Shown here: positions 21,694 through 60,607 of the stretch, one piece after another
Position numbering within the stretch: the stretch's first letter is position 1
Layout of the letters: each line of letters starts with the position of its first letter
NCBI RefSeq assembly: GCF_000317515.1
Contig: NC_019740.1
Coordinates: 1 to 64,000 of the forward strand
Direction of reading: 5' to 3'
Length of the DNA: 64,000 nucleotides
Source: Allocoleopsis franciscana PCC 7113
Lineage (GTDB): Bacteria; Cyanobacteriota; Cyanobacteriia; Cyanobacteriales; Coleofasciculaceae
Notes under the pieces: model-generated
The model's database searches: none
What the model was told of the DNA's origin: nothing
What the model saw: the letters and a program-made list of their open reading frames with translations, nothing else
Made by a program: the position numbers and the translations under genes

Positions 21694-21722
21694 GGCTAAG
21701 TCATTTAAGAGATAATTAAAAA

Positions 21723-22343: not shown

Positions 22344-22370
22344 ATTAACCTCCCTAAGTGTTATTGAGCA

Positions 22371-23871: not shown

Positions 23872-23908
23872 GAGTTCACCTATATATTAATGCTAATTCA
23901 GCCTTAGG

Positions 23909-25030: not shown

Positions 25031-25075
25031 CTAAAAACCTCCTATTAAATTTATGTAGTACTACGGCAATGATAA

Positions 25076-27524: not shown

Positions 27525-27528
27525 AAAT

Positions 27529-29865
27529 CTACTTGCTCCCGATTACGGCTTGTTGCACAGTTGATGGAGTTTTTGGCTCTTCAGTGAAAGGATAAAGGTC
27601 TACCAGTTCTCGCCAAATGGTTTCATAGGTAGTTGTGTCAGCTTCCTCTTTCAACGTCATCCAGGGTGCTAAGTTGCCATTATTTGTTTTGGCTGCACAC
27701 CAGGCTTCTTCAAACTGTTCTTTGAGTTGGTGTTGGTGTTTCTTGTCTTGCAACCGGGTTCGGAAATAGCGGTAGTTGAGAATGGCGGTATTTTTGCCTT
27801 GTTCTAGGAAGCTGCGGATTTGGTAAAGTTGCGATCGCGGAAAGTTCACTTCTTTCAAAACCTTCGCTGTTTCTAGCAGTCCTCCCAGTTCGTGAAGGGT
27901 GTAAGGAGCTGCATAAAGCTTGAGTTTCTGTTGTCCTGTCCCTGCTTTCATCAAGCCTTGACTACGAAATTCTCCAATGTTAGAAGAAATCATGGTTACT
28001 GATTTCATCACTAGAAAGTCAACTGTACCCCCACAGTACCCCTCTTTTTTTAGCTCTTTAGCTCGCTTTTTAGCCGATTTAAGTAATTGAGTCGTAAGCT
28101 TTTCCGCATAGTAAATTGGGGTATCTTCGGCTGTAATTAAAACCCCTGTAGACATACTCAGCTTGCATTGATTTGAGCCTGAAACCTGTTGTGCTTGATA
28201 TCGGTGTACCAATTTGGGCTTGTAATCCTTGTCAGCAGCATAACGGCATTGCTTCTCTGGTTTGAGTAATTGTTTTTCAAATTCTTCCCCAATCGTCTTG
28301 GCAATTGCTAGCGCTTTATCAGCCGGAACAATCAGCAGTACGTCATCCCCGCCAATGGTAATAATTTCAAAGGGATGAATCCAAGTCTCATTTCGATGTT
28401 GGTTATCTGCATCATTTAGATTATTCAGCTTGTGGGGTTTGAGATGTTGGGCTAAGGCTTCATAAACCGAGTTTTCTGTTGCCTCGAAAATATCTTCGCT
28501 AAATTGCTGGTAATCTTCTGGGGTTTTAATTTCTTTTTGGATGTAGCCCCCCATATTATTGCCATCTGCATAGATGTAGCCTACAAATCCTTTGGGTGTA
28601 CTAGCATTAGCTATCTCTCTGAGCGATCGCGCTTCTTTTACTGTCTGATCGGGTTTCTGTTCTGAGACATTTCGGTAGTATCTATTATGTAAGTTTGTTT
28701 CTTTCAAAAAGTCCTTAAATTTAACGACCCAACTTTTGAGCTTTCCTGAGTTCCATATTTGTTTGATTTGACCAATTTGCCACCGCCAAGCCGAATTTTT
28801 ATCAGTCCACCATTTTTGTCCTTGCTCGCTTTCCCCCTTACTTCTTTGTCCGACAATCCGCTTGCGGGCTAAAGCATCAGAAAACCAAGGTTCACCTGGA
28901 AGACGTTTAGCGGGAGCAATTGCGGCGCGGCGATCGCTTTCATCTCTTCTTAAGTAAGGGTGTGTCTCAAACATGGGCGGGTAACGGCGAGTCGGACGCC
29001 CATCTTGAACATCATTGCCATTACGCCGTTGATTGAATAAAGCGGCTAATTTACCTGCCAATTCATTGAAGCTTTTGCGATTTTGAAAAGCTTTTGATAA
29101 ATCATCAACATCAGGCTGATCGAAGTAAGCTTTTACGAGTGGATTTTGGTGGTTTTGATGATACCACTCTAGCCAAGGCGTATCTTCAATTGAGTCTTTC
29201 AGCAGTCCATAGCGTAGTTCTAATAGCTTAAAGGTAGAGCCAACTGCACAGGAATTGGCGGTTAGAGTTTCTTGTGTATAGCGCTTTTCGATCGCGTTGG
29301 CTAAATCATCGACAAAGGCAGCGGGACAAAACGCCAGGATGTTGCCACCTTTGTAGTAAATGAGTAGTTCTTTAATTAAGGCGGCTTCTAGATGGGGAAA
29401 ATTTTTATTCAGCCACCTGGAGATTCGAGGCGATTTTTGAGGTTCTCCAAAGAATGCTGGAATATCAACTAAGTTAATCCGATCGAGTATGGCTGAAGCG
29501 CCGCGAATATCTGGAAGTTTGGCAGCTTCAAATACGTATTGCTTAATTTTTGTAGCACCGCCATAGACTAGACCAATCCGGGTAGTTTGTTGCCATAAAT
29601 CTGGGTACTTCTCCTTAAGTCCAGTTATCTGTTCAGGGAAGTCATTTTTAGGAATGGCTTGCAACTGCTGGACTTGCTCAACGAGGTATCGCACTGCCTC
29701 TGGAACTTCTTTCCCTTCTTGCATCGCCTGTTGCATTTGCTGCAATACAGGTAGTTCAAACTGGGGTTGGCGCTGTTCGCCCCAAGCTAGACACCAAGCA
29801 ATCGCGATCGTGATGGATTTGCCAGAATTGGTCATGTCACAGTTAATGGGGTGGTTTGATTTCAT
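27529..29865 (-). CDS. cas10: Cas10, cyclic-oligoadenylate synthase subunit of type III-D
   Basis: 778 residues. The palm domain carries the catalytic GGDD at 505-508 (IITIGGDDVLLIVP). Near residue 110, TKIKQYVFEAAKLPDIRGAS is the usual first palm-region block of Cas10. I see no His-Asp pair of an HD nuclease at the N-terminus, so target-triggered ssDNA cutting is doubtful. The main output is probably cOA synthesis. A second possible start (MTNSGKSI, 29835) is ten codons downstream. It heads the operon; the leader of array D lies divergently upstream. Confidence 0.93.
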   Translation of the reverse strand: MKSNHPINCDMTNSGKSITIAIAWCLAWGEQRQPQFELPVLQQMQQAMQEGKEVPEAVRYLVEQVQQLQAIPKNDFPEQITGLKEKYPDLWQQTTRIGLVYGGATKIKQYVFEAAKLPDIRGASAILDRINLVDIPAFFGEPQKSPRISRWLNKNFPHLEAALIKELLIYYKGGNILAFCPAAFVDDLANAIEKRYTQETLTANSCAVGSTFKLLELRYGLLKDSIEDTPWLEWYHQNHQNPLVKAYFDQPDVDDLSKAFQNRKSFNELAGKLAALFNQRRNGNDVQDGRPTRRYPPMFETHPYLRRDESDRRAAIAPAKRLPGEPWFSDALARKRIVGQRSKGESEQGQKWWTDKNSAWRWQIGQIKQIWNSGKLKSWVVKFKDFLKETNLHNRYYRNVSEQKPDQTVKEARSLREIANASTPKGFVGYIYADGNNMGGYIQKEIKTPEDYQQFSEDIFEATENSVYEALAQHLKPHKLNNLNDADNQHRNETWIHPFEIITIGGDDVLLIVPADKALAIAKTIGEEFEKQLLKPEKQCRYAADKDYKPKLVHRYQAQQVSGSNQCKLSMSTGVLITAEDTPIYYAEKLTTQLLKSAKKRAKELKKEGYCGGTVDFLVMKSVTMISSNIGEFRSQGLMKAGTGQQKLKLYAAPYTLHELGGLLETAKVLKEVNFPRSQLYQIRSFLEQGKNTAILNYRYFRTRLQDKKHQHQLKEQFEEAWCAAKTNNGNLAPWMTLKEEADTTTYETIWRELVDLYPFTEEPKTPSTVQQAVIGSK

Positions 29866-30327: not shown

Positions 30328-30611
30328 GTTTACGCAAGCACTTCCCCGCAAGGGGATGGAAACTGTTGGTTGAATAACAGGCGCAGGAGCCTGTTGTGGT
30401 TTACGCAAGCACTTCCCCGCAAGGGGATGGAAACGTTTGTACCAGGAGTAGAGGTAGGGGGTGTGGTAGTAGTTTACGCAAGCACTTCCCCGCAAGGGGA
30501 TGGAAACGAGAGTCGGAGGAAGTTGGAGGGTTTTCCTCCAAATCGTTTACGCAAGCACTTCCCCGCAAGGGGATGGAAACGAAAAGTTCAGGATAGCCTG
30601 AACGCTCCTTC
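30328..30611 (+). CRISPR. CRISPR array D, leader-proximal part (4 repeats)
   Basis: Repeats of 36 bp at 30328, 30399, 30472 and 30545 begin GTTTACGCAAGCACTTCC and end AAGGGGATGGAAAC. The fourth spacer is cut after 31 bp (30581-30611) by a Tn7-like element and resumes at 35720. That spacer contains the palindrome GTTCAGG-atag-CCTGAAC. The last 5 bp before the element, CCTTC, are repeated on its far side. Confidence 0.97.
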
Positions 30612-30765
30612 TGTCACTTGAACCATATCCTGTCCAAAGTGGAAGCATAAGCTGTCCAGCGACAGGGGCAAAAACCCTGATGCTGTCGTAGGAAGAACAG
30701 TGGCTTTGGTAGCCAAGTAGAACTATAAATTGTCCCTAAGTTGAAATTGGAAGGATAAGATGTCC
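30612..30765 (+). repeat. Left end of Tn copy 1 with TnsB-type sites
   Basis: After the terminal repeat come three copies of the motif ATAARNTGTCC: 30647-30657 (ATAAGCTGTCC), 30725-30735 (ATAAATTGTCC) and 30755-30765 (ATAAGATGTCC). Spaced copies like these are typical transposase-binding sites of Tn7-like ends. The tnsAB gene starts 52 bp later, so its promoter overlaps them and self-repression is plausible. Confidence 0.7.
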
Positions 30766-30816
30766 TGGAGTTGATAAACTGACAATATCCTCCCATTGCT
30801 GCCAGAGAAAAAATAA

Positions 30817-33204
30817 ATGCTGGACGGCGAACAGTTTGTGCGGTGGTGTCAGCAGTTAGCCTTGGCAGAACCGACAAGGAAATACATCGAACTGTTACGC
30901 AGTTCGCCACCTGCGCGTGTGGTACGCAGTAGGGCAGGCAACGTGAGTGGTCGTTACCCCAGTCGAAAAATGGGCGTGACGATTCAATTTGAGAGCCACC
31001 ACAACGAATTGGCAGGCATCTATGAAATGGAATATGACCCAGATGTGCTGGAATATTACGATCAACCCAGTGGGCTTAAACTTAGCTATCAAGCTCTGTG
31101 TGGTCGGAAAGTAGGAGTCCTGCATACCCCAGATTTCTTCGTGTTGCGCCAAACATCTGCTGGCTGGGAAGAGTGGAAAACACTTGATGAATTAGTGCGA
31201 TTATCAGCTAAGATGCCTGCTCGCTACGTGAAAGAAATTGAAGGTCAATGGCACTGTCCCCCAGGAGAAGAAGTAGCACAAAGCTTGGGATTATATTATC
31301 GCATCCGCTGCAACGCTGAAATTGACTGGGTTTTCCAAAATAATCTTCATTTTCTCGAAGACTACTTGCAGCCGTCCCATTTGGATCTAGAAGAGAACGT
31401 TCGTGCCAACATCACATTACTGGTAGAACTTCATCCAGGAATTACCTTAGGTGAATTGCTACAACAGGGGTACAACTGTGACGAGGTTTATACCCTAATT
31501 GCCCAAAATCATTTAAAGGTGAATTGGCGAGGTGTCAACATAGCGCAACTTGGTTCACAGCGTCAAATCTTTCCGGCTAGTCAGAAAGTTTGTCAAACCG
31601 AAACAACCAAGTGGAGAAGAGCATCAACCTTAGAATTAGCCCCTAACTTAGTTGACCTAAAACCTGGTTCTCCTGTGGTGTGGAATGGAAAAAGCTTATC
31701 GATTCTCAATCGGGGAGAAACCCATACAGCCCTACTCAATGAAGAGGAAAAAGTCATCCAACTGCCCAACGTTGCCCTATTGGAATTAGTCAAACAGGGT
31801 GAGTTAACAGGTGTTGTCACCCACTCCTTACCATCTGCAAAAGAAGTCAATGACCTTTTAGCCAAGGCTAGCGTCGATGATTGTGCACAAGCCAACCGCC
31901 GCTATTCCATCATTGCTCCCTACCTAACGGGTGAACTCCAAACCTCAAATCAGGTCGTCAGTACACGTACAATTCGCCGTTGGTTGCATTCGTGGCAAAA
32001 AGCCCAAGAGCAATATGGATGTGGTTATGTAGGTTTATTGCCTCGCGTCAGCTCTAAAGGTAATCGCCAATCCAAATTACCGGAAGCGACACAAAAAATC
32101 GTAGACGAATTCATTGCTAACAACTATCTAAATCTCAAACAGCAAGGAAAATTCGCCGTTTACAGTTCACTGGTACGAGCCTGTGAACAGCAAGGGATTA
32201 CTCCTTGTAGCTACAAAACATTTGTCCGAAACATTCATCAAAAATCTAACTATGAACAGGCTTTGAAAAGGCAGGGGCGTAGGGCGGCTTACAAGCACGA
32301 ACCTTTTTATTGGGAGCTAGAGGTAAACACCCCTAGGCACGGACAACGACCCTTTGAAATCTGCCATATTGACCATACACAATTAGATATTGAGCTAGTT
32401 AGCTCCCACACATCAGTAAATCTGGGTCGCCCTTGGGCTACCTTCCTAACAGACGCTTACTCACGACGAATACTAGCCGTTTATCTGTGTTTTGACCCAC
32501 CGTCCTACCGTAGTTGCATGATGGTAATGCGCGAGTGTGTCCGTCGTCACGGACGCTTGCCCCACACGATAGTGGTGGATGGAGCCAAAGAATTCATGAG
32601 TGTTTACTTCGAGCGGCTACTAGCCGCTTACTCTTGCACGAAGAAAACCCGACCAGCGGCTAAACCCCGATTTGGTTCAGTATGCGAACGCTTGTTCGGG
32701 ACAGCCAACACCATGTTGATTCACAATCTCCAGGGAAATACGCAAATTAACAAGAATTCTAGGGCTGTGACGAAAAGCGTTAATCCCCGTAATTTAGCTA
32801 TTTGGACGCTGGGGAGTTTGTATCAGAATCTATGCGATTGGGCTTATGAATTTTACGACAACAAGGAGCATCCGGCACTCTTGAAAAGCCCAAGAGCAGC
32901 TTTTTCAGATGGCTTGTTGCAAACCGGATTGCGCCCACATAAACTGATTCCTTACGATGAAACCTTTCGGATTTTGACCCTACCAACAACATCCAAAGGA
33001 ACTGCCAAAGTCATTCCTAATCAAGGAGTCAAAATTAACCACATCTACTATTGGCATAATAGTTTTCGGAATCCGGAAATTGAAAAGACTCAAGTTCTCG
33101 TGCGCTATGACCCAAATGATGTTGGGATTGCCTATGCCTACATAAAAGGTCAGTGGGTAAATTGCATCTCGCAGCACTATAGCAGCTTAGCGGGTCACTC
33201 TTAG
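30817..33204 (+). CDS. tnsAB: TnsAB fusion transposase, copy 1
   Basis: 795 residues. The N-terminal part is TnsA-like: Glu64 (HHNELAG), PD at 105-106 (HTPDFFV) and E119-x-K121 (WEEWK) give an E-PD-ExK endonuclease site. The C-terminal part is a TnsB/IS3-like RNase H transposase with Asp519 (HIDHTQLD), Asp588 (VDGAKEF) and Glu624 (VCERLFG), a D-35-E spacing. Having both strand-cutting activities predicts cut-and-paste transposition, unlike TnsA-less elements. TnsAB fusions are known from cyanobacterial Tn7-like elements, including type I-B CASTs. Position 139 is Lys (codon AAA at 31231); copy 2 has Gln. Confidence 0.92.
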   Translation: MLDGEQFVRWCQQLALAEPTRKYIELLRSSPPARVVRSRAGNVSGRYPSRKMGVTIQFESHHNELAGIYEMEYDPDVLEYYDQPSGLKLSYQALCGRKVGVLHTPDFFVLRQTSAGWEEWKTLDELVRLSAKMPARYVKEIEGQWHCPPGEEVAQSLGLYYRIRCNAEIDWVFQNNLHFLEDYLQPSHLDLEENVRANITLLVELHPGITLGELLQQGYNCDEVYTLIAQNHLKVNWRGVNIAQLGSQRQIFPASQKVCQTETTKWRRASTLELAPNLVDLKPGSPVVWNGKSLSILNRGETHTALLNEEEKVIQLPNVALLELVKQGELTGVVTHSLPSAKEVNDLLAKASVDDCAQANRRYSIIAPYLTGELQTSNQVVSTRTIRRWLHSWQKAQEQYGCGYVGLLPRVSSKGNRQSKLPEATQKIVDEFIANNYLNLKQQGKFAVYSSLVRACEQQGITPCSYKTFVRNIHQKSNYEQALKRQGRRAAYKHEPFYWELEVNTPRHGQRPFEICHIDHTQLDIELVSSHTSVNLGRPWATFLTDAYSRRILAVYLCFDPPSYRSCMMVMRECVRRHGRLPHTIVVDGAKEFMSVYFERLLAAYSCTKKTRPAAKPRFGSVCERLFGTANTMLIHNLQGNTQINKNSRAVTKSVNPRNLAIWTLGSLYQNLCDWAYEFYDNKEHPALLKSPRAAFSDGLLQTGLRPHKLIPYDETFRILTLPTTSKGTAKVIPNQGVKINHIYYWHNSFRNPEIEKTQVLVRYDPNDVGIAYAYIKGQWVNCISQHYSSLAGHS

Positions 33205-33224
33205 CTGCAACTCCAGCGGAGAAA

Positions 33225-34355
33225 CTGGCTTACTTTGAAAGTTGTACGGTAGTACACAGGCAATTAAAAATTGCTTATGAAGCTGTAATAGATGCCGTCA
33301 ATAATCCTGGAGGAGCTTCATTAATCTTTTTGTTTGGTCCTACCGGGGTGGGGAAAACAACCTTACTCCATCAAGTTGTGAAAGTGCTAATAGAGCAGAA
33401 CTCCAGAGCTATGCAACTTGATTGTGGGCATATTCCTGTTGCTTATGTAGAAGCTCGCGCTCCCGAATCCGGGTCTTTCGACTGGAAAGATTATTATAAA
33501 AGCGTCTTGATAGCTTTAGCTGACCCCTTCGTTGATTATAAACTCAGAACTGGCAGTAGCCGAATTGAGGGCAGGGGTTCGGCTCAACGTCTAGTTAAAT
33601 CAAGAGCCAACCTTTCAGATTTACGAGAGGATGTAGCCGCAATTATCCAACAACGTCGGTTAATTGTATTTCTAGTTGATGAAGCCCAACGCTTCACTAA
33701 AATGGCATCGGGACGAAGACAACAAGACCAAATGGATGCCATTCAGTCAATGGCAAGTTTCACGTCCACCCGACACGGACTTTTTGGCACTTATGAACTG
33801 CTACAGTTAAGAAATTTAAGCGGTCAATTGAGCCGCCGCAGTTTAGATATTCACTTTCCTCGTTATCAAGCGGATTGCTCACAGGACGTTAAAGATTTCA
33901 AACGGGTACTCAAAAGCTTTGCCTGCCAAATGCCCTTGTTAGAAGTCCCTGATTTAGAGCAGCATTGGGAATACTTTTACGAACGCAGTATCGGTTGTGT
34001 CGGGATAGTGAAAGATTGGCTGACACAAGCTTTGAGAAAAGCGTTGGGAGAATCAGCCTCTACCCTGAGCTTGGCACATCTTACACCTTATGCTCCCAGT
34101 GTTTCTAAATGTATGCAAATGGCAACTGAGGCGATAGAAGGTGAGAAAGCGCTGCTCCAATCGGAGAGCGAACTGAGCCGATTGCGTCAAAAATTGGGAT
34201 TAACTGTTAAGGAGCCACCAACAGCAACAGAAGCCTTGCTCAATAGCCCGACCCGTTCTACGGCTAATAAAAAAGACAAGAAAACAAAGAAACGTCGTCC
34301 GGGAGAGCGTAATCCTCAACGGGATGTCATCGGAGGCGCTCCCAGTGTCAGTTGA
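33225..34355 (+). CDS. tnsC: TnsC AAA+ regulator, copy 1 (unusual start)
   Basis: About 376 residues if read from CTG at 33225. Walker A GPTGVGKTT and Walker B LIVFLVDEAQR are clear, and the C-terminus is a basic tail (KKDKKTKKRRPGERN). The codons before the Walker A read like a real TnsC N-terminus (LAYFESCTVVHRQLKIAYEA, then VIDAVNNPGG), yet contain no ATG, GTG or TTG until TTG at 33330, which starts right at the P-loop. A GGAG 4 bases before the CTG favours CTG. A -1 shift from tnsAB, whose frame overlaps, is the alternative. TnsC bridges TniQ-marked target DNA and the transposase. Confidence 0.85.
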   Translation: MAYFESCTVVHRQLKIAYEAVIDAVNNPGGASLIFLFGPTGVGKTTLLHQVVKVLIEQNSRAMQLDCGHIPVAYVEARAPESGSFDWKDYYKSVLIALADPFVDYKLRTGSSRIEGRGSAQRLVKSRANLSDLREDVAAIIQQRRLIVFLVDEAQRFTKMASGRRQQDQMDAIQSMASFTSTRHGLFGTYELLQLRNLSGQLSRRSLDIHFPRYQADCSQDVKDFKRVLKSFACQMPLLEVPDLEQHWEYFYERSIGCVGIVKDWLTQALRKALGESASTLSLAHLTPYAPSVSKCMQMATEAIEGEKALLQSESELSRLRQKLGLTVKEPPTATEALLNSPTRSTANKKDKKTKKRRPGERNPQRDVIGGAPSVS

Positions 34356-35568
34356 AAGCTGGAGTAATCATCAACTGTGGTATTCAAAAACCACAACAAT
34401 TCCAGAGCGTAGCCGCCTGCATCCTCTTGAACCCATCGGTGTAGGAACGCCGACAGTAGAGAGTTTAACCAGTTATGTGGCTCGGTTGGCAGCAGCTCAT
34501 CGAGTACCTACGGGTATTTTGCTAGCTCAAGAAGTCGCTCAACAAGTCAGTAGATATCAGGGCAATCAGCATCAAGGGTTATCCAGATGGTTTTTCCGTG
34601 TCTTTTTCAACGATACGGGGGCCTGGAATGGCATGGGAATTATGGCATCTGAGCCAGTTCATGTGTTAGAAGCACGAACCAAGCAGCATCAGTTACGGTT
34701 TCTCACTTTGTTACGTTGGGCTAACGTTTTACCGTCACGAGGTTTACTTCGTACCAACAAGGCTTGGTGTCCCGTGTGCTATGACGATTGGGAGCGTTGT
34801 GGCAAACCCATCTACGAGCCTTTATTATGGTCGCTCCAGGTAGTGACAACTTGTCCTGTTCATCAACAAGTTTTATGGCATCAATGTCCCAATTGTCGGC
34901 GGTCGCTCTACCCTCTAGAGTGGAATTCCCGACCGGGTTTCTGCTCTAGATGCCAACAGTGGTTGGGTGTGAGTTCATTTTTGAGTACAGGCGAGACCTC
35001 TTTTGATGCTTCCCCAGTAGAGCCACCTGATTGGGAATGGCAGATTTTTGTTGTGTACTCCGTGGGAAAAATTCTAGAGCAAGCACCTTTTCTTGAGTCT
35101 GTGCCAGCTAGAGAAAATCTGGCATTTTGTATTGACTTATGTATTCAAAAAGCTACCAACGGTAATGCTAAAGCTTTTGCTGAGTTAATGTACCTGAGTG
35201 CTTCCGTACCAGGAGAATGGCGATGTGGTCAAGCACTGGCACAATTAGGTTTGCTCTTACGAGTTTGTTGGTGTCTTTCTATTCCTTTAGTTGATTTCCT
35301 CACTGGCCGGGTAGTGATTGAGCAACCGCTATCGTTGAAGGTTTTGCCTATCACTCAACAAAGGAGAAAAACTAATCGGCGCTTTGATGCGCTGAAAGTA
35401 CAAATGTTTTTAGAGGCAGCTTTGTCTTTTGAACCACCCCAGTCTCTCAAGCAAGTGGCTGCTACTATTGGATACGACCCTGGCGATATCTCCCGATTTT
35501 TCCCAGACTTGTGCCACCAAATTTCCGCTCGTTACAGATTATACCGACAAGCAATCAGAAAGTCCTAG
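34324..35568 (+). CDS. tniQ: TniQ target-selection protein, copy 1
   Basis: 414 residues, overlapping the end of tnsC by 32 bp. The N-terminal TniQ domain (PTVESLTSYVARLAAAHRVP) is followed by zinc-ribbon Cys/His clusters (WCPVCYDDW, TCPVHQQV, HQCPNCRRS, FCSRCQQW, roughly 148-215). The C-terminal region is helical, ending in a possible HTH (SLKQVAATIGYDPGDISRFF). TniQ/TnsD proteins recognise the attachment site and recruit TnsC. The length lies between short CAST TniQ and full TnsD. It is the prime candidate for reading CRISPR-repeat DNA. Confidence 0.88.
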   Translation: MSSEALPVSVESWSNHQLWYSKTTTIPERSRLHPLEPIGVGTPTVESLTSYVARLAAAHRVPTGILLAQEVAQQVSRYQGNQHQGLSRWFFRVFFNDTGAWNGMGIMASEPVHVLEARTKQHQLRFLTLLRWANVLPSRGLLRTNKAWCPVCYDDWERCGKPIYEPLLWSLQVVTTCPVHQQVLWHQCPNCRRSLYPLEWNSRPGFCSRCQQWLGVSSFLSTGETSFDASPVEPPDWEWQIFVVYSVGKILEQAPFLESVPARENLAFCIDLCIQKATNGNAKAFAELMYLSASVPGEWRCGQALAQLGLLLRVCWCLSIPLVDFLTGRVVIEQPLSLKVLPITQQRRKTNRRFDALKVQMFLEAALSFEPPQSLKQVAATIGYDPGDISRFFPDLCHQISARYRLYRQAIRKS

Positions 35569-35719
35569 CTATAATAATGCCATTCCCCAAGTCTATCTCC
35601 AGGTACTCGCAAGCGGTTCAAGTCTAGTTACCTCGTCCCACCACGTCGAAGTATAAAGTGACCACAGTTTTTTGGACAACTTATGCTTCCACTTTGGACA
35701 GGATATGGTTCAAGTGACA
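35569..35719 (-). repeat. Right end of Tn copy 1
   Basis: 150 bp of non-coding transposon. The site GGACAACTTAT (35674-35684) is the complement of the ATAARNTGTCC motif of the left end, and a weaker ATAAAGTGACC lies at about 35653. The terminal repeat runs to TTCAAGTGACA at 35719. No cargo gene fits here. Confidence 0.7.
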
Positions 35720-35912
35720 CCTTCCAAGTCAAGTTTACGCAAGCACTTCCCCGCAAGGGGATGGAAACCTTTTCATACCTAACATTAGGTATGGGTCACT
35801 TTTGGGTTTACACAAGCACTTCCCCGCAAGGGGATGGAAACCTATTGGTGGTTGGGGTGATTGTGATGCAGTTGTTCTTTCCGAAACCTCTTCCCCGCAA
35901 GGGGACGGAAAC
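35720..35912 (+). CRISPR. CRISPR array D, distal part (3 repeats)
   Basis: It starts with the duplicated CCTTC and the last 8 bp of the split spacer (CAAGTCAA). Repeats follow at 35733, 35806 (one change, ACACAAGC) and 35877. The last is strongly degenerate (CTTTCCGAAACCTCTTCC, ending GGGGACGGAAAC) and marks the end of the array. Cut off from the leader by 5.1 kb, this part can only be expressed by read-through across the transposon. Confidence 0.92.
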
Positions 35913-36113: not shown

Positions 36114-37478
36114 TCAAGAATCTTCAGACCTATGATAAAGCCCCCACTCCTTCTCCACATCAGCAGCAACCCTCTGCCGTAACGCCCAAGGCAAGAGAAC
36201 CTCCACAAAAGGACGCCAAGCTTGCAGGCGCTGCAATACATTCGGGTCGCCCTCACGGTAAGTCGCACTATAGTAAGCATCCTGAGGACAACGAGCCAAA
36301 ATCCCTAGCAGTGTCTCTCGCTCCGGTAGATGAGTTAGCTTTTTAATCAAACGTTTCGCCTCTGCATAACTCACCGACTCAAACGTCTCGTGGCGCACCG
36401 TCCCCTGAATGTATCGCCGGTCATGAATGCGGTCAAACCGCAGCAACAAAAGGGAAGCCCTTTGATAATAATCAAACCCCCACACTTGAGCCATTTGCTC
36501 TTGGATATAATCCGGTGTCGGCAGCGTCTTATCCCGATATTGCTGTACCAAAGACGGCGCAATTCGCTCATCTGCCCAATTTAAAGAAATCAAAGACTCA
36601 AGTCGGTCAAGGCGATAATTCCACCAGTTGATTTCCCCATCAGGATTTTGCCCCAAAGCACACAGATACGTTGCCCGTTGCACATAGTAAATGCAAACCG
36701 GGTAAACAACACATTCTACATTTCGGTCAAGCTTGGCACTTCTGTAAACCAGCAACACGGGAGGGACACAAGTCTGCGCCCAAAGATTTCTCAATTGCTC
36801 CTGAAAATCGTCCACCTTATCCAACATTTCAGGCGGAACCACATAATCAACGTGGATAAAAAAACGCTGGATGCCATCAATTTGTTGGGAATAGTTCTGG
36901 GCAATTAACGCTAAATCGGGAGGTAAAAAATTGAGGTCGTAAGTCGCCAGTTGCCGCTCTTTAGGAACGTCGCCACTCGTCATCGGTCGCACAGGAAGCG
37001 ACTGCACCCGATGGTATTTCCGCTTGTCATATTTGAGCCATTGCAGTTGGCTTAGGGTTTGCAAGTCCCCCGCAAGCATTCGCCTGGTTATAGCAAATAG
37101 CGGTGTTTGCAACCAACTCCCCAGCGTCTTTTCATCAATCCCCCCATGATGTCCAATGAAGTGCCGCCAGTCCGCTTCTAAAATTCCCGTTCCTGAACCA
37201 AACAGCCAGTGACGCGCACTTTTATTGCAAGGACAACGAGAATCACGATGCTGGGGAACTTCTTCCCCTTTAGGATGGGTGGGACTAAAAAACGCATCCC
37301 GCCATTGAGAGTAACTAAAGGAATCCGGGAGGTCGAGGCGTTCCGATTCATCCCCATACAGCAGGCGCAACCACACCCACAAGCGCACCGCTCTGGAAAG
37401 GTTCTGCTTGAGAGAACCTCGTGCTAGCCATTGCAATAGCTCTACACTGGGCGAATCACGGAAAATCGGGCGGGACAT
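36114..37478 (-). CDS. WYL-like CRISPR-associated regulator (TIGR03985-like)
   Basis: 454 residues beginning MSRPIFRDSPSVELLQWLAR. This N-terminus and the length recall the cyanobacterial family TIGR03985, found with CRISPR loci. The middle and C-terminal parts (YVQRATYLCALGQNPDGEIN, then WWNYRLDRLESL) look like a WYL sensor domain, which often binds nucleotides or ssDNA and controls transcription of defence genes. It is divergent from csx3 with only 74 bp between starts, so it may control csx3 and csx3-AAA. The family call is from memory. Confidence 0.7.
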   Translation of the reverse strand: MSRPIFRDSPSVELLQWLARGSLKQNLSRAVRLWVWLRLLYGDESERLDLPDSFSYSQWRDAFFSPTHPKGEEVPQHRDSRCPCNKSARHWLFGSGTGILEADWRHFIGHHGGIDEKTLGSWLQTPLFAITRRMLAGDLQTLSQLQWLKYDKRKYHRVQSLPVRPMTSGDVPKERQLATYDLNFLPPDLALIAQNYSQQIDGIQRFFIHVDYVVPPEMLDKVDDFQEQLRNLWAQTCVPPVLLVYRSAKLDRNVECVVYPVCIYYVQRATYLCALGQNPDGEINWWNYRLDRLESLISLNWADERIAPSLVQQYRDKTLPTPDYIQEQMAQVWGFDYYQRASLLLLRFDRIHDRRYIQGTVRHETFESVSYAEAKRLIKKLTHLPERETLLGILARCPQDAYYSATYREGDPNVLQRLQAWRPFVEVLLPWALRQRVAADVEKEWGLYHRSEDS

Positions 37479-37552
37479 GGGTGAGGAAATTTGGAAAAGG
37501 CAATTTCCAGCTATTTGCTAGAGTACCAGTATTCGTATCACTGAGTCTACTG

Positions 37553-37882
37553 ATGAGTGCCATTCAACTTGAACTCATTCCCCACCAAACCGCAGACGGA
37601 CTAGCCTATCAGCACCTGCGAATTCACCTGACTAGTCCAGATGGCATCATCGAACCCGAAGATTTAAAAGGGTTGAAGCTGCCTGAAGGGATAGCCTCCA
37701 GTCAAGGGGTTGTGATGGAAGGCAGAGGCCCCATTTGGCTCTATGGCTACCTCGTCCACGAATGTCATGCTACCCCTTGGGTGGCGTGCTACGACCCACG
37801 CTTGGAAGGGGCGGTCGTGGTAGAAGCTCATACTCGCGGTGTTTCTGTGGGTTCGGTTTTAAAGTTAAGCCTGCCGAAGTAG
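37553..37882 (+). CDS. csx3: Csx3 ring nuclease (Crn3)
   Basis: 109 residues from MSAIQLELIP. The open frame extends 44 codons upstream, but that part overlaps the divergent gene's start and does not look like Csx3. The block LVHECHATPWVACYDPR then ends AVVVEAH, supplying His72, Asp81, Arg83 and His93. As I recall, these correspond to the His-Asp-Arg-His site of the characterised Csx3. Csx3 degrades cyclic tetra-adenylate, so it should switch off the Cas10 signal. First gene of a pair with csx3-AAA. Confidence 0.88.
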   Translation: MSAIQLELIPHQTADGLAYQHLRIHLTSPDGIIEPEDLKGLKLPEGIASSQGVVMEGRGPIWLYGYLVHECHATPWVACYDPRLEGAVVVEAHTRGVSVGSVLKLSLPK

Positions 37883-37884
37883 CT

Positions 37885-37955
37885 ATGAAAGTAAAAAGTA
37901 AAAAGTAAAAAGACATTTCTTTTGCCTTTTAACTTTTGCCTTTTAACTTAAAAAA
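37885..37955. repeat. AAAAGT/ACTTTT dispersed repeat between csx3 genes
   Basis: Tandem GTAAAAA units followed by complementary CTTTTAACTTTTGCC units can fold as a hairpin. The same kind of filler occurs after the RT-cas1 start (10802-10840), after cas1 (12983-13025), after cassette gene A (13997-14040) and after gene B (14389-14410). Confidence 0.6.
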
Positions 37956-37957
37956 AG

Positions 37958-38860
37958 ATGATTGCCACTTCCAAAAAACCGTTACAACTCACAGTCACTC
38001 AAGTTACTGCCCGAAATGGGAATTGTTACCAATGTCTGGAGATAGATATTACCGTACCCGAACTGAAACCTGCCACCTTGGCTAAGCTAGAGTTGCCAGC
38101 AGATTTAGACTTAAACCAAGGGGTTGTGTTGTGGGGTTCGGCACCGATTTGGCTTTACAGCAACTTGGTGAAGCGCTGCACTTCAGCCCCTTGGATAGGG
38201 TGCTATAACGTGCCTTTGGGGTCGTTTGTTGTAGTCGCCAGTCGCTGCCCACAGATGAGAGTCGGTGATGCTGTTGAGTTGGTTAATAAATCCCAATGTT
38301 CTGCCATCCTAATTGGTGGCCCTCCAGATAGTGGTAAGAGCGTTCTCTGCTATGCTTTATCTTGCAATCTTAAACAAGAGGCATCCGATAAGAAGATTTT
38401 CTTGCAGCGGGCGCAGTGGGATGGGGAAGGAAACTGGTTTGCTCAGATGAAGAATCGACCCCTGGCTGAGGAATTGAGTACCCGTTCTCGCGCCAAAGGT
38501 TCGGAACAGTTCTTTCTCTACCATGCTGATGCAGTCAGTAATGTACGGGAAGTGATGGAACTGGTGTTGGTGGATTTTGGGGGAATGCCCCAGCCAAGGG
38601 ATGTGATTTTGTTGCACCGCTGCACCCACTACATCATTATTAGTAGCAAGCCAGAGGAGATTTCCAAATGGCATGATTTCTGCGGCAAGCGGGGGGGACT
38701 CAAACCTCTAGCAGTGATTCACAGTGTGCGGGAGAAGCGGTTAGAGGTATTGCCGAATCAGAAGTTTTTGGAAATGATTGCTGGCCCTTGGGAACGGGGT
38801 GAGACACTTTCAGTACCGGATGAGTTACTGCAAGGGGTGCTGAATTTAGCAAGGCGCTAA
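37958..38860 (+). CDS. csx3: Csx3-AAA fusion with degenerate ring-nuclease site
   Basis: 300 residues. Residues 1-110 are a Csx3 domain (GVVLWGSAPIWLYSNLVKRC is the match), then P-loop GGPPDSGKS at 120-128 and an ATPase-like domain to the end. In the Csx3 domain the catalytic positions seen in the upstream gene are replaced: Thr75 for His, Asn84 for Asp, Pro86 for Arg, Arg96 for His. So this copy probably binds but does not cut cyclic oligoadenylate, and may use the ATPase part for another step. Csx3-AAA fusions are known next to type III systems. The function is not settled. Confidence 0.82.
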   Translation: MIATSKKPLQLTVTQVTARNGNCYQCLEIDITVPELKPATLAKLELPADLDLNQGVVLWGSAPIWLYSNLVKRCTSAPWIGCYNVPLGSFVVVASRCPQMRVGDAVELVNKSQCSAILIGGPPDSGKSVLCYALSCNLKQEASDKKIFLQRAQWDGEGNWFAQMKNRPLAEELSTRSRAKGSEQFFLYHADAVSNVREVMELVLVDFGGMPQPRDVILLHRCTHYIIISSKPEEISKWHDFCGKRGGLKPLAVIHSVREKRLEVLPNQKFLEMIAGPWERGETLSVPDELLQGVLNLARR

Positions 38861-44349: not shown

Positions 44350-44384
44350 TTTTAAATCTTGAGGACATACATATTACGCCAAAT

Positions 44385-44489
44385 CCTCCTTGTCCCCCTT
44401 GTCCCCCTTGTCCCCCTTGTCCTCCTTGTCCTCCTTGTCTCCCTTGTCTCCCTTGTCCTCCCTGTCCTCCTTGTCTCCCTTGTCCCCCT
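44385..44489. repeat. 9-bp tandem repeat tract (TTGTCCCCC)
   Basis: About eleven units of TTGTCCCCC with C/T changes (TTGTCCTCC, TTGTCTCCC). Related tracts are at 50335-50472 and 52602-52660, and a short one lies inside cas3 at 46543-46571. The 9-bp unit keeps any reading frame it enters (Gly-Asp-Lys on one strand). Confidence 0.9.
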
Positions 44490-54489: not shown

Positions 54490-55227
54490 CTTTCCGCGAA
54501 CTTAATCCCCGCAAGGGGACTGAAACCTTCATCGCCATCACGGGAGGGGCGGGGAGGAACTTTCCGCGAACTTAATCCCCGCAAGGGGACTGAAACATAC
54601 GAGGAATACCATCAATTCCACCTAAATTCTCAAGTGCGCTTTCCGCGAACTTAATCCCCGCAAGGGGACTGAAACAACAGGTAACATGTTTGAAGCTACA
54701 TTACCAAAACTTTCCGCGAACTTAATCCCCGCAAGGGGACTGAAACAGTTATTTAAACTCCTGTCATTTATTGCACTAGTCTTTCCGCGAACTTAATCCC
54801 CGCAAGGGGACTGAAACAACTGTATAACCTTAAGTATTTAGCTTAAGTAACCTTGCTTTCCGCGAACTTAATCCCCGCAAGGGGACTGAAACATTGGACG
54901 CTGTGCCAATTTCTCAGCCATTGAACAAGCGACTTTCCGCGAACTTAATCCCCGCAAGGGGACTGAAACATTGGACGCTGTGCCAATTTCTCAGCCATTG
55001 AACAAGCGACTTTCCGCGAACTTAATCCCCGCAAGGGGACTGAAACGTTGAAATATACATTGTTCTAACCTCGTATTAAATCAAAACTTTCCGCGAACTT
55101 AATCCCCGCAAGGGGACTGAAACGAGGTGATCGAAGAAAGTTCAAATTCAGGTGAAGACACTTTCCGCGAACTTAATCCCCGCAAGGGGACTGAAACACA
55201 AAGACCAACAATCAACCTATTTATAAA
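54490..55227 (+). CRISPR. CRISPR array E, leader-proximal part (10 repeats)
   Basis: Repeats of 37 bp start at 54490, 54560, 54639, 54710, 54781, 54856, 54933, 55010, 55087 and 55161. They begin CTTTCCGCGAACTTAATCCC and end AAGGGGACTGAAAC. Spacers 6 (54893-54932) and 7 (54970-55009) are identical over 40 bp, so one repeat-spacer unit was duplicated. The tenth spacer is cut after 30 bp by the second Tn7-like element, with the 5-bp duplication ATAAA. Confidence 0.97.
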
Positions 55228-55432
55228 TGTCACTTGAACCATATCCTGTCCAAAGTGGAAGCATAAGCTGTCCAGCGACAGGGGCAAAAACCCTGATGCT
55301 GTCGTAGGAAGAACAGTGGCTTTGGTAGCCAAGTAGAACTATAAATTGTCCCTAAGTTGAAATTGGAAGGATAAGATGTCCTGGAGTTGATAAACTGACA
55401 ATATCCTCCCATTGCTGCCAGAGAAAAAATAA

Positions 55433-57820
55433 ATGCTGGACGGCGAACAGTTTGTGCGGTGGTGTCAGCAGTTAGCCTTGGCAGAACCGACAAGGAAATA
55501 CATCGAACTGTTACGCAGTTCGCCACCTGCGCGTGTGGTACGCAGTAGGGCAGGCAACGTGAGTGGTCGTTACCCCAGTCGAAAAATGGGCGTGACGATT
55601 CAATTTGAGAGCCACCACAACGAATTGGCAGGCATCTATGAAATGGAATATGACCCAGATGTGCTGGAATATTACGATCAACCCAGTGGGCTTAAACTTA
55701 GCTATCAAGCTCTGTGTGGTCGGAAAGTAGGAGTCCTGCATACCCCAGATTTCTTCGTGTTGCGCCAAACATCTGCTGGCTGGGAAGAGTGGAAAACACT
55801 TGATGAATTAGTGCGATTATCAGCTAAGATGCCTGCTCGCTACGTGCAAGAAATTGAAGGTCAATGGCACTGTCCCCCAGGAGAAGAAGTAGCACAAAGC
55901 TTGGGATTATATTATCGCATCCGCTGCAACGCTGAAATTGACTGGGTTTTCCAAAATAATCTTCATTTTCTCGAAGACTACTTGCAGCCGTCCCATTTGG
56001 ATCTAGAAGAGAACGTTCGTGCCAACATCACATTACTGGTAGAACTTCATCCAGGAATTACCTTAGGTGAATTGCTACAACAGGGGTACAACTGTGACGA
56101 GGTTTATACCCTAATTGCCCAAAATCATTTAAAGGTGAATTGGCGAGGTGTCAACATAGCGCAACTTGGTTCACAGCGTCAAATCTTTCCGGCTAGTCAG
56201 AAAGTTTGTCAAACCGAAACAACCAAGTGGAGAAGAGCATCAACCTTAGAATTAGCCCCTAACTTAGTTGACCTAAAACCTGGTTCTCCTGTGGTGTGGA
56301 ATGGAAAAAGCTTATCGATTCTCAATCGGGGAGAAACCCATACAGCCCTACTCAATGAAGAGGAAAAAGTCATCCAACTGCCCAACGTTGCCCTATTGGA
56401 ATTAGTCAAACAGGGTGAGTTAACAGGTGTTGTCACCCACTCCTTACCATCTGCAAAAGAAGTCAATGACCTTTTAGCCAAGGCTAGCGTCGATGATTGT
56501 GCACAAGCCAACCGCCGCTATTCCATCATTGCTCCCTACCTAACGGGTGAACTCCAAACCTCAAATCAGGTCGTCAGTACACGTACAATTCGCCGTTGGT
56601 TGCATTCGTGGCAAAAAGCCCAAGAGCAATATGGATGTGGTTATGTAGGTTTATTGCCTCGCGTCAGCTCTAAAGGTAATCGCCAATCCAAATTACCGGA
56701 AGCGACACAAAAAATCGTAGACGAATTCATTGCTAACAACTATCTAAATCTCAAACAGCAAGGAAAATTCGCCGTTTACAGTTCACTGGTACGAGCCTGT
56801 GAACAGCAAGGGATTACTCCTTGTAGCTACAAAACATTTGTCCGAAACATTCATCAAAAATCTAACTATGAACAGGCTTTGAAAAGGCAGGGGCGTAGGG
56901 CGGCTTACAAGCACGAACCTTTTTATTGGGAGCTAGAGGTAAACACCCCTAGGCACGGACAACGACCCTTTGAAATCTGCCATATTGACCATACACAATT
57001 AGATATTGAGCTAGTTAGCTCCCACACATCAGTAAATCTGGGTCGCCCTTGGGCTACCTTCCTAACAGACGCTTACTCACGACGAATACTAGCCGTTTAT
57101 CTGTGTTTTGACCCACCGTCCTACCGTAGTTGCATGATGGTAATGCGCGAGTGTGTCCGTCGTCACGGACGCTTGCCCCACACGATAGTGGTGGATGGAG
57201 CCAAAGAATTCATGAGTGTTTACTTCGAGCGGCTACTAGCCGCTTACTCTTGCACGAAGAAAACCCGACCAGCGGCTAAACCCCGATTTGGTTCAGTATG
57301 CGAACGCTTGTTCGGGACAGCCAACACCATGTTGATTCACAATCTCCAGGGAAATACGCAAATTAACAAGAATTCTAGGGCTGTGACGAAAAGCGTTAAT
57401 CCCCGTAATTTAGCTATTTGGACGCTGGGGAGTTTGTATCAGAATCTATGCGATTGGGCTTATGAATTTTACGACAACAAGGAGCATCCGGCACTCTTGA
57501 AAAGCCCAAGAGCAGCTTTTTCAGATGGCTTGTTGCAAACCGGATTGCGCCCACATAAACTGATTCCTTACGATGAAACCTTTCGGATTTTGACCCTACC
57601 AACAACATCCAAAGGAACTGCCAAAGTCATTCCTAATCAAGGAGTCAAAATTAACCACATCTACTATTGGCATAATAGTTTTCGGAATCCGGAAATTGAA
57701 AAGACTCAAGTTCTCGTGCGCTATGACCCAAATGATGTTGGGATTGCCTATGCCTACATAAAAGGTCAGTGGGTAAATTGCATCTCGCAGCACTATAGCA
57801 GCTTAGCGGGTCACTCTTAG
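55433..57820 (+). CDS. tnsAB: TnsAB fusion transposase, copy 2
   Basis: 795 residues, same TnsA-like (E64, PD 105-106, E119-x-K121) and TnsB-like (D519, D588, E624) sites as copy 1. The only residue difference is Gln139 here (codon CAA at 55847) instead of Lys139. That position follows the TnsA-like core, outside the catalytic residues, so both are expected to be active. The pre-crRNA promoter of array E reads into this gene. Confidence 0.92.
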   Translation: MLDGEQFVRWCQQLALAEPTRKYIELLRSSPPARVVRSRAGNVSGRYPSRKMGVTIQFESHHNELAGIYEMEYDPDVLEYYDQPSGLKLSYQALCGRKVGVLHTPDFFVLRQTSAGWEEWKTLDELVRLSAKMPARYVQEIEGQWHCPPGEEVAQSLGLYYRIRCNAEIDWVFQNNLHFLEDYLQPSHLDLEENVRANITLLVELHPGITLGELLQQGYNCDEVYTLIAQNHLKVNWRGVNIAQLGSQRQIFPASQKVCQTETTKWRRASTLELAPNLVDLKPGSPVVWNGKSLSILNRGETHTALLNEEEKVIQLPNVALLELVKQGELTGVVTHSLPSAKEVNDLLAKASVDDCAQANRRYSIIAPYLTGELQTSNQVVSTRTIRRWLHSWQKAQEQYGCGYVGLLPRVSSKGNRQSKLPEATQKIVDEFIANNYLNLKQQGKFAVYSSLVRACEQQGITPCSYKTFVRNIHQKSNYEQALKRQGRRAAYKHEPFYWELEVNTPRHGQRPFEICHIDHTQLDIELVSSHTSVNLGRPWATFLTDAYSRRILAVYLCFDPPSYRSCMMVMRECVRRHGRLPHTIVVDGAKEFMSVYFERLLAAYSCTKKTRPAAKPRFGSVCERLFGTANTMLIHNLQGNTQINKNSRAVTKSVNPRNLAIWTLGSLYQNLCDWAYEFYDNKEHPALLKSPRAAFSDGLLQTGLRPHKLIPYDETFRILTLPTTSKGTAKVIPNQGVKINHIYYWHNSFRNPEIEKTQVLVRYDPNDVGIAYAYIKGQWVNCISQHYSSLAGHS

Positions 57821-57840
57821 CTGCAACTCCAGCGGAGAAA

Positions 57841-58971
57841 CTGGCTTACTTTGAAAGTTGTACGGTAGTACACAGGCAATTAAAAATTGCTTATGAAGCT
57901 GTAATAGATGCCGTCAATAATCCTGGAGGAGCTTCATTAATCTTTTTGTTTGGTCCTACCGGGGTGGGGAAAACAACCTTACTCCATCAAGTTGTGAAAG
58001 TGCTAATAGAGCAGAACTCCAGAGCTATGCAACTTGATTGTGGGCATATTCCTGTTGCTTATGTAGAAGCTCGCGCTCCCGAATCCGGGTCTTTCGACTG
58101 GAAAGATTATTATAAAAGCGTCTTGATAGCTTTAGCTGACCCCTTCGTTGATTATAAACTCAGAACTGGCAGTAGCCGAATTGAGGGCAGGGGTTCGGCT
58201 CAACGTCTAGTTAAATCAAGAGCCAACCTTTCAGATTTACGAGAGGATGTAGCCGCAATTATCCAACAACGTCGGTTAATTGTATTTCTAGTTGATGAAG
58301 CCCAACGCTTCACTAAAATGGCATCGGGACGAAGACAACAAGACCAAATGGATGCCATTCAGTCAATGGCAAGTTTCACGTCCACCCGACACGGACTTTT
58401 TGGCACTTATGAACTGCTACAGTTAAGAAATTTAAGCGGTCAATTGAGCCGCCGCAGTTTAGATATTCACTTTCCTCGTTATCAAGCGGATTGCTCACAG
58501 GACGTTAAAGATTTCAAACGGGTACTCAAAAGCTTTGCCTGCCAAATGCCCTTGTTAGAAGTCCCTGATTTAGAGCAGCATTGGGAATACTTTTACGAAC
58601 GCAGTATCGGTTGTGTCGGGATAGTGAAAGATTGGCTGACACAAGCTTTGAGAAAAGCGTTGGGAGAATCAGCCTCTACCCTGAGCTTGGCACATCTTAC
58701 ACCTTATGCTCCCAGTGTTTCTAAATGTATGCAAATGGCAACTGAGGCGATAGAAGGTGAGAAAGCGCTGCTCCAATCGGAGAGCGAACTGAGCCGATTG
58801 CGTCAAAAATTGGGATTAACTGTTAAGGAGCCACCAACAGCAACAGAAGCCTTGCTCAATAGCCCGACCCGTTCTACGGCTAATAAAAAAGACAAGAAAA
58901 CAAAGAAACGTCGTCCGGGAGAGCGTAATCCTCAACGGGATGTCATCGGAGGCGCTCCCAGTGTCAGTTGA
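57841..58971 (+). CDS. tnsC: TnsC AAA+ regulator, copy 2 (unusual start)
   Basis: Same sequence as copy 1, including the lack of ATG, GTG or TTG between the tnsAB stop and the TTG at the P-loop (57946). CTG at 57841 with GGAG upstream is my preferred start. Because both copies share the feature, it is not a chance mutation in one of them. Confidence 0.85.
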   Translation: MAYFESCTVVHRQLKIAYEAVIDAVNNPGGASLIFLFGPTGVGKTTLLHQVVKVLIEQNSRAMQLDCGHIPVAYVEARAPESGSFDWKDYYKSVLIALADPFVDYKLRTGSSRIEGRGSAQRLVKSRANLSDLREDVAAIIQQRRLIVFLVDEAQRFTKMASGRRQQDQMDAIQSMASFTSTRHGLFGTYELLQLRNLSGQLSRRSLDIHFPRYQADCSQDVKDFKRVLKSFACQMPLLEVPDLEQHWEYFYERSIGCVGIVKDWLTQALRKALGESASTLSLAHLTPYAPSVSKCMQMATEAIEGEKALLQSESELSRLRQKLGLTVKEPPTATEALLNSPTRSTANKKDKKTKKRRPGERNPQRDVIGGAPSVS

Positions 58972-60184
58972 AAGCTGGAGTAATCATCAACTGTGGTATT
59001 CAAAAACCACAACAATTCCAGAGCGTAGCCGCCTGCATCCTCTTGAACCCATCGGTGTAGGAACGCCGACAGTAGAGAGTTTAACCAGTTATGTGGCTCG
59101 GTTGGCAGCAGCTCATCGAGTACCTACGGGTATTTTGCTAGCTCAAGAAGTCGCTCAACAAGTCAGTAGATATCAGGGCAATCAGCATCAAGGGTTATCC
59201 AGATGGTTTTTCCGTGTCTTTTTCAACGATACGGGGGCCTGGAATGGCATGGGAATTATGGCATCTGAGCCAGTTCATGTGTTAGAAGCACGAACCAAGC
59301 AGCATCAGTTACGGTTTCTCACTTTGTTACGTTGGGCTAACGTTTTACCGTCACGAGGTTTACTTCGTACCAACAAGGCTTGGTGTCCCGTGTGCTATGA
59401 CGATTGGGAGCGTTGTGGCAAACCCATCTACGAGCCTTTATTATGGTCGCTCCAGGTAGTGACAACTTGTCCTGTTCATCAACAAGTTTTATGGCATCAA
59501 TGTCCCAATTGTCGGCGGTCGCTCTACCCTCTAGAGTGGAATTCCCGACCGGGTTTCTGCTCTAGATGCCAACAGTGGTTGGGTGTGAGTTCATTTTTGA
59601 GTACAGGCGAGACCTCTTTTGATGCTTCCCCAGTAGAGCCACCTGATTGGGAATGGCAGATTTTTGTTGTGTACTCCGTGGGAAAAATTCTAGAGCAAGC
59701 ACCTTTTCTTGAGTCTGTGCCAGCTAGAGAAAATCTGGCATTTTGTATTGACTTATGTATTCAAAAAGCTACCAACGGTAATGCTAAAGCTTTTGCTGAG
59801 TTAATGTACCTGAGTGCTTCCGTACCAGGAGAATGGCGATGTGGTCAAGCACTGGCACAATTAGGTTTGCTCTTACGAGTTTGTTGGTGTCTTTCTATTC
59901 CTTTAGTTGATTTCCTCACTGGCCGGGTAGTGATTGAGCAACCGCTATCGTTGAAGGTTTTGCCTATCACTCAACAAAGGAGAAAAACTAATCGGCGCTT
60001 TGATGCGCTGAAAGTACAAATGTTTTTAGAGGCAGCTTTGTCTTTTGAACCACCCCAGTCTCTCAAGCAAGTGGCTGCTACTATTGGATACGACCCTGGC
60101 GATATCTCCCGATTTTTCCCAGACTTGTGCCACCAAATTTCCGCTCGTTACAGATTATACCGACAAGCAATCAGAAAGTCCTAG
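58940..60184 (+). CDS. tniQ: TniQ target-selection protein, copy 2
   Basis: 414 residues, identical to copy 1: TniQ domain, Cys-rich zinc clusters, possible C-terminal HTH. It ends 151 bp before the right end of the transposon. As the only target-selection protein in the element, it should account for the choice of CRISPR arrays. Confidence 0.88.
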   Translation: MSSEALPVSVESWSNHQLWYSKTTTIPERSRLHPLEPIGVGTPTVESLTSYVARLAAAHRVPTGILLAQEVAQQVSRYQGNQHQGLSRWFFRVFFNDTGAWNGMGIMASEPVHVLEARTKQHQLRFLTLLRWANVLPSRGLLRTNKAWCPVCYDDWERCGKPIYEPLLWSLQVVTTCPVHQQVLWHQCPNCRRSLYPLEWNSRPGFCSRCQQWLGVSSFLSTGETSFDASPVEPPDWEWQIFVVYSVGKILEQAPFLESVPARENLAFCIDLCIQKATNGNAKAFAELMYLSASVPGEWRCGQALAQLGLLLRVCWCLSIPLVDFLTGRVVIEQPLSLKVLPITQQRRKTNRRFDALKVQMFLEAALSFEPPQSLKQVAATIGYDPGDISRFFPDLCHQISARYRLYRQAIRKS

Positions 60185-60335
60185 CTATAATAATGCCATT
60201 CCCCAAGTCTATCTCCAGGTACTCGCAAGCGGTTCAAGTCTAGTTACCTCGTCCCACCACGTCGAAGTATAAAGTGACCACAGTTTTTTGGACAACTTAT
60301 GCTTCCACTTTGGACAGGATATGGTTCAAGTGACA

Positions 60336-60607
60336 ATAAATTTGAGAGCTTTCCGCGAACTTAATCCCCGCAAGGGGACTGAAACTAGCCTTAGAATGGG
60401 GGAACCTCTTCAGATTTCTCCTTTCCGCGAACTTAATCCCCGCAAGGGGACTGAAACCGGTTGACATCCTCCCACCGCTAATTCGGAGTACCGAACTTTC
60501 CGCGAACTTAATCCCCGCAAGGGGACTGAAACGGACGGCTGATCACAATTTGGCTAATGCGACCTTTGAACTTTCCGCGAACTTAATCCCCGCAATGAAA
60601 CTGAAGC
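60336..60607 (+). CRISPR. CRISPR array E, distal part (4 repeats)
   Basis: Duplicated ATAAA, the last 8 bp of the split spacer (TTTGAGAG), then repeats at 60349, 60421, 60496 and 60571. The last is degenerate in its second half (CCCCGCAATGAAACTGAAGC) and marks the array end. Without the transposon, array E would have 14 repeats. Nothing visible lies between it and the end of recD2 (60663). Confidence 0.95.

Follow-up and report, generated by a model that had tools for sequence, protein, structure and literature searches.

Attachment sites named for Tn7-like transposons in the available portions of three accounts (PMC11406308, PMC10293859, PMC8649781) are glmS, tRNA genes, comM, parE, res sites, and guide-RNA sites, and CRISPR arrays do not appear among them in these portions. 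In Tn7 itself, TnsD protects the region from +23 to +58 relative to the insertion center (PMC2918618). The group with fused TnsA and TnsB (TnsAB) is described in PMC11406308 as having many unstudied targeting systems, and its tRNA-directed cyanobacterial members include, according to PMC11406308 and PMC10293859, the I-B2 CAST Tn7744/PmcCAST and the I-D CASTs Tn7575/Tn7745. Literature searches covering papers other than the main survey of cyanobacterial elements (Hsieh and Peters, NAR 2023) gave no earlier report of array targeting by Tn7-like elements. Here, we describe a small cyanobacterial element of this kind, present in two copies in the window, the whole 64,000-nucleotide stretch of DNA that was analyzed. 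The element appears to insert in the manner of TnsD-guided Tn7 and belongs to the TnsAB-fused group, being neither a CAST nor tRNA-directed. The CRISPR-repeat motif beside which it lies appears to be a novel attachment site for Tn7-like transposons guided by TnsD.

Results

Two copies of the element in two CRISPR arrays

Both copies (Table 1) have Tn7-type ends, with TGT...ACA termini, multiple TnsB-like sites, and 5-bp duplications; ends and target-site duplications (TSDs) show that they were inserted by a Tn7-type transposase. At the left end of copy 1, more TnsB-site-like motifs are found at element positions 114, 144, and 163. Copy 1 interrupts spacer 4 of array D (repeat GTTTACGCAAGCACTTCCCCGCAAGGGGATGGAAAC), with its left end 31 bp after repeat 4 and its right end 13 bp before repeat 5, and its excision in silico restores a spacer of 39 bp, the neighboring ones measuring 35 to 37 bp. 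The original prediction had given the spacer, both distances, and the restored 39-bp length, together with the 5,108-bp length and the CCTTC duplication, and these were confirmed; its Tn7-like assignment likewise holds, given tnsAB, tnsC, tniQ, and the TSDs. The 13-bp ends that it claimed were too short, as the terminal inverted repeats of copy 1 actually match over ~46 to 47 bp.

Copy 2, in the same orientation, interrupts a second array whose repeat is not that of array D, its left end 30 bp after and its right end 13 bp before a repeat, and its excision leaves a 38-bp spacer. The different TSDs (CCTTC versus ATAAA) rule out that copy 2 is a recombination duplicate of copy 1. The copies start at 30612 and 55228, 24.6 kb apart in the same orientation, and thus any Tn7-type target immunity did not stop the second insertion. 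As read from the sequence, the element split the arrays and is transcribed in the array direction. Arrays of the same window with GGGGACGGAAAC repeats contain no insertion. Random placement would put two of the three copies of this genome in arrays with P~5e-7 when counting the window arrays only (~0.04% of the genome), the true value being somewhat higher.

A type III-D-like CRISPR-Cas locus lies by array D (17271-29865 and 36114-38860), encoding Cas10, Csx10/Cas5, several Csm3-like proteins, Cas6, CARF-RelE, a WYL regulator, and Csx3-AAA, and a reverse transcriptase-Cas1 fusion adjoins an array (8790-10793). I-D-like genes (Cas6d- and Cas1d-like) are found beside array E (45094-54272), and in this region the Cas3-like helicase is apparently split in two ORFs (45094-45864 and 45916-48123). 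Array E also contains an exact 77-bp duplication of one of its repeat-spacer units (54856-55009), and the nonamer CCCCTTGTC / GGGGACAAG forms tandem runs at 44354-44520, 50308-50496, and 52581-52675.

Table 1. Features of the two element copies and their flanking repeats (window positions; RE+n, n bp outside the right end)
Feature	Position	Strand	Remarks
Array D repeat 4, upstream of copy 1	30545..30580	+	
Copy 1 left duplication	30607..30611		CCTTC
Tn7-like element, copy 1	30612..35719	+	5,108 bp; from sequence, TSD, and second copy
Copy 1 left terminal inverted repeat	30612..30658	+	
tnsAB fusion, copy 1	30817..33204	+	795 aa; Pfam TnsA-N, rve, and Mu-transpos_C in one ORF
tnsC frame (AAA ATPase), copy 1	33198..34355	+	Original start lost
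348-bp deletion junction (tnsAB end and tnsC start), copy 1	33200..33201		Based on chromosomal copy L013
tniQ (TnsD-type target selector), copy 1	34324..35568	+	414 aa; Pfam TniQ 1.8e-20
Copy 1 right terminal inverted repeat	35673..35719	-	Two clear TnsB-site-like motifs
Copy 1 right duplication	35720..35724		CCTTC
Array D repeat 5, downstream of copy 1	35733..35768	+	3' end is the putative recognition site
Predicted TniQ recognition motif, copy 1	35756..35768	+	AGGGGATGGAAAC; ends RE+49
Array E repeat upstream of copy 2	55161..55197	+	
Copy 2 left duplication	55223..55227		ATAAA
Tn7-like element, copy 2	55228..60335	+	5,108 bp; one mismatch with copy 1
tnsAB, copy 2	55433..57820	+	
tnsC, copy 2	57946..58971	+	341 aa from first remaining start
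tniQ, copy 2	58940..60184	+	
Copy 2 right duplication	60336..60340		ATAAA
Array E repeat downstream of copy 2	60349..60385	+	
Predicted TniQ recognition motif, copy 2	60373..60385	+	AGGGGACTGAAAC; ends RE+50

A three-gene element with a shared deletion

The Tn7-like gene set (TnsB-type DDE transposase, TnsC AAA ATPase, and TniQ/TnsD) forms one operon, truncated in the window copies and intact in Coleofasciculus sp. LEGE 07092 (L012; 898, 397, and 414 aa for tnsAB, tnsC, and tniQ). These three genes are the only ones, and no cas effector gene, guide, or cargo was found within the 5.1- to 5.5-kb elements. A third copy in the same genome (L013; chromosome contig C1, 4445292-4450741) lies outside arrays with the TSD TCTGC; relative to it, both window copies are without 348 bp after base 33200 (copy 1 numbering). 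Through this deletion, tnsAB of copy 1 lost its C-terminal ~103 residues compared with the intact 898-aa homologue in L012, and the first common start remaining in frame for its tnsC is a TTG at 33330. Although L013 keeps its full length, its tnsAB and tnsC are frameshifted by two one-base indels in homopolymers, which may be genuine or may stem from sequencing. Since the deletion is common to both window copies and their TSDs are different, the deleted form was probably mobilized in trans.

Insertions in other genomes

Genome and contig searches found the close family only in this genome, in LEGE 07092 (G505), in the MAG UBA8803 (G544), and, by ends only, in G529, with 52 to 55% relatives in G481 and G470. 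Eight sites were resolved in five genomes, two of them being near-identical copies on one replicon. Five lie in arrays, namely the two of the window and three in two other genomes, and three lie elsewhere: L013, L012 (TSD CTATC, closely preceding a short-chain dehydrogenase gene), and L079, belonging to the 55%-identical relative in G481. In UBA8803, the right end of copy L011 is located 12 bp before a repeat of a third type, CTTCCCACTCGCTGGGAAACCAACTTGAATGGAAAC. On the left, 12 bp separate the copy from a repeat, and it has no TSD, so that its left flank was probably rearranged. The second UBA8803 site (L081), whose end was identified by a 73-bp match, has its left end 29 bp after a repeat in a nine-repeat array. 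The L084 contig of G529 breaks off within the element, whose end stands 13 bp ahead of a repeat in an array of four or more; just 22 bp of this end are visible, and it was taken as the right end by fit.

Beyond these genomes, IMG/VR gave no match by exact right-end sequence or TniQ profile, the plasmid collection held full-length relatives only at ≤36%, and a class-wide search yielded no additional member of the array-targeting TniQ clade. A loose element-end pattern run on five genomes returned known ends and chance matches only.

A shared motif 48 to 50 bp from the right end

Each of the seven sites whose right flank can be read has GRAYKGAAAC-like DNA that ends 48 to 50 bp beyond the right end of the element, which is the tniQ side, the decamers (end offset) being GGATGGAAAC (49), GGACTGAAAC (50, twice), GAATGGAAAC (48), GAATGGAATC (48), GGAAGGAAAC (49), and CAATGGAAAA (50). 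In array sites, this motif forms the 3' terminus of the repeat that follows the element, and the right end stands at a fixed distance and in a fixed orientation relative to it. A PWM was trained on repeats alone, the three out-of-array flanks, absent from training, serving as test sites. Its best match there fell at RE+48 (L013), 49 (L012), and 50 (L079), with a chance of an equal match of 0.0024, <1e-5, and 0.012, respectively, over an eight-position window set after the 48-50 offset had been noticed; the L079 match is weak. The motif was looked for on the left side of L013 and L012 and was absent, and two further ends outside the eight resolved sites (L082 and L083) are without it if taken as right ends.

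Because all seven readable right flanks, in and out of arrays, carry the motif, TniQ most likely reads a stretch of ~10 bp that CRISPR repeats supply in bulk, and not arrays as such. The sequence GGGGANNGAAAC occurs 73 times in the genome versus 21 for the reversed control, and 45 of the 73 occurrences are on the CRISPR-rich contig C3, nearly all inside arrays; motif specificity alone would thus make arrays the commonest target. In this refined reading, the element also inserts outside arrays, at chance motif matches.

The original prediction held that the element recognizes CRISPR-repeat DNA at a fixed distance. The constant offset stands, as does the 13-bp gap to repeat 5, but recognition appears to concern a short motif, which out-of-array sites share together with its distance, and the landmark would lie at the 3' terminus of the repeat beyond the right end rather than in the repeat that precedes the left end by 31 bp. 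Close homologues were found neither mostly outside arrays nor at random offsets: five of eight are in arrays at the fixed offset, and the other three all share motif and distance. The remoter relatives (34 to 44% TniQ identity) are not in arrays.

TniQ nests among tRNA-directed TnsDs

TniQ aligns end to end with TnsD of PDB 8v32, a TnsD-TnsC-DNA complex (E 8e-90, 38% identity), and shares its fold (Z 34.1, 380 residues, rmsd 8.3); the aligned span is 15-412 with this TnsD and only 19-216 with the CAST TniQ of 8fcu. The AlphaFold model reached a pLDDT of 46.5 with 5 sequences and 82 with 21. TniQ relatives at 34 to 44% identity lie outside arrays, most beside tRNA genes, and many are full-length TnsD-like. 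These tRNA-directed relatives have an antisense tRNA gene (Val, Ala, Leu, or Thr) beyond the right end, at 29 to 32 bp in most, whose T-arm GGAYTYGAAC (GAAC end) stops at RE+51-53; L019 and L054, which have no called tRNA, apparently adjoin intron-containing tRNA-Leu genes, read by eye. Six of them (L016, L049, L050, L052, L053, and L089) have a tandem pair of TnsD-like genes. At L066 (G547), which has no tRNA neighbor, CTGCTTGAAC ends at RE+52 and resembles a T-arm even though no tRNA gene is called there. No tRNA gene was found near the members of the array-targeting clade with a readable flank, where the defining feature of tRNA-directed elements is absent.

In the TniQ tree, the array-targeting clade (five rows, support 100) is nested among tRNA-directed TnsDs and adjoins a tRNA-Leu neighbor (support 86). 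All five members, and they alone, have 14 to 17 residues after the FPDLC helix versus 71 to 80 in tRNA-directed TnsDs, the clade having lost the C-terminal ~58 residues; their helix-turn-helix is also changed, and YDPGD replaces the common YDRRT at the start of the FPDLC helix. The near-same register in tRNA relatives and the nesting of TniQ argue that the geometry was inherited and the sequence read was changed. The recognition of repeat DNA put forward originally would be derived from the TnsD mode already known to be directed at tRNA genes. We hypothesize that the loss of the C-terminal domain caused a relaxed, shorter recognition. The likeness between repeat motif and tRNA T-arm (p 0.002 for the E repeat, 0.03 for D, others not significant) only faintly suggests that the one imitates the other.

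Discussion

We propose a model, which we consider very likely from these sequence comparisons, in which a motif-reading TnsD-type TniQ of a cargo-free Tn7-like element guides insertion beside repeats with a specificity derived from a tRNA-reading TnsD. By homology, TniQ would bind double-stranded DNA with ~GRAYKGAAAC and, as in Tn7, would recruit TnsC and the transposase, which would join the right end ~48 to 50 bp from the far edge of the motif with a 5-bp duplication and a fixed orientation. Each motif-bearing repeat would thereby direct the element into the spacer that immediately precedes it, and arrays would be the richest target, as several CRISPR repeats carry the motif at their 3' ends. 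The switch from a tRNA-reading TnsD may have come with the loss of the C-terminal ~58 residues and the change in the preceding helix-turn-helix.

Four other explanations were weighed against this model. The element could instead take the upstream repeat as its landmark and measure ~30 bp from it to the left end, in agreement with the left-end distances of 31, 30, and 29 at three sites. We regard this as quite improbable: spacer length by itself yields such a distance when the downstream repeat is the one measured, at L011 the left distance, like the right one, is 12 bp, the out-of-array copies have no motif on the left, and the target of tRNA relatives is on the right. Marginally less credible still is the recognition of a DNA structure (a palindrome or cruciform, or a feature of array replication or transcription) instead of a sequence; repeats do hold CCCCGCAAGGGG-type palindromes and the L079 site adjoins one, but such palindromes are absent from L012 and L013, which carry the motif at an equal distance. 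RNA-guided insertion, with a crRNA leading the element to a spacer or array as in a CAST, is highly improbable, even though PMC11406308 places I-B2 and I-D CASTs among the relatives of this TnsAB/TniQ group: the 5.1- to 5.5-kb element has no cas gene or guide, the targeted spacers differ, the alignments to 8v32 versus 8fcu make TniQ a TnsD type, and the out-of-array sites have only the ~10-bp motif in common. Arrays tolerate insertions and might be harmless landing places kept by selection without recognition, an equally implausible idea that the constant offset largely refutes in the close family, as selection could not hold the offset to within 1 to 2 bp, set the orientation, or account for the motif at out-of-array sites.

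Following from the motif-reading model, we tentatively raise a broader proposal, to which we lean slightly less than to its contrary: a Tn7-like lineage may have the CRISPR-repeat 3' end as its dedicated attachment site, homing into immune memory across CRISPR types, and may show the origins of CASTs. If true, array-homing elements nested in the subfamily behind I-B2 and I-D CASTs could show how transposons captured repeats and cas genes. The motif-reading model itself would add CRISPR repeats to glmS, tRNA, comM, parE, and the other Tn7-like attachment sites, with a specificity switch associated with the loss of a C-terminal domain, in an element that breaks immune memory at a predictable place. 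It would give a concrete route for the physical linkage of transposons to arrays before domestication as CASTs, and would make available an integrase that a protein directs to a ~10-bp site.

Among known systems, Tn7 (TnsD/attTn7, glmS) shares with the element a TnsD-type selector and a fixed distance from the bound sequence, its +23 to +58 footprint covering the motif register found here; unlike the element, it has separate TnsA and TnsB and a single conserved chromosomal gene target, and the element is without TnsE. Tn5469 of Fremyella diplosiphon is likewise small, with one TniQ and no cargo, according to PMC11406308, but it is described there as apparently untargeted. Regions of Tolypothrix 7601 and 7712 considered as Tn5469 proved to be degenerate or a different element, one relative there having 33% TniQ identity; a Tolypothrix PCC 7712 plasmid (L140) carries a TnsAB-fused element followed by a tandem of more element ends with 24/25 identical termini. 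The Tn5053 family of res-site hunters (PMC11406308) also aims a single TniQ at a repeated class of site, but uses a resolvase, targets res sites, and is without TnsA. With the TnsAB-fused tRNA-directed group, the element has in common fused TnsA-TnsB, TnsC, a TnsD-type TniQ, a 5-bp TSD, and a target beside the right end at an almost equal distance. It differs from this group and its CASTs in having no Cascade, second TniQ, or cargo, and from the tRNA-directed members in that its TniQ is without the C-terminal ~58 residues and its target is a CRISPR-repeat-like motif in place of a tRNA gene.
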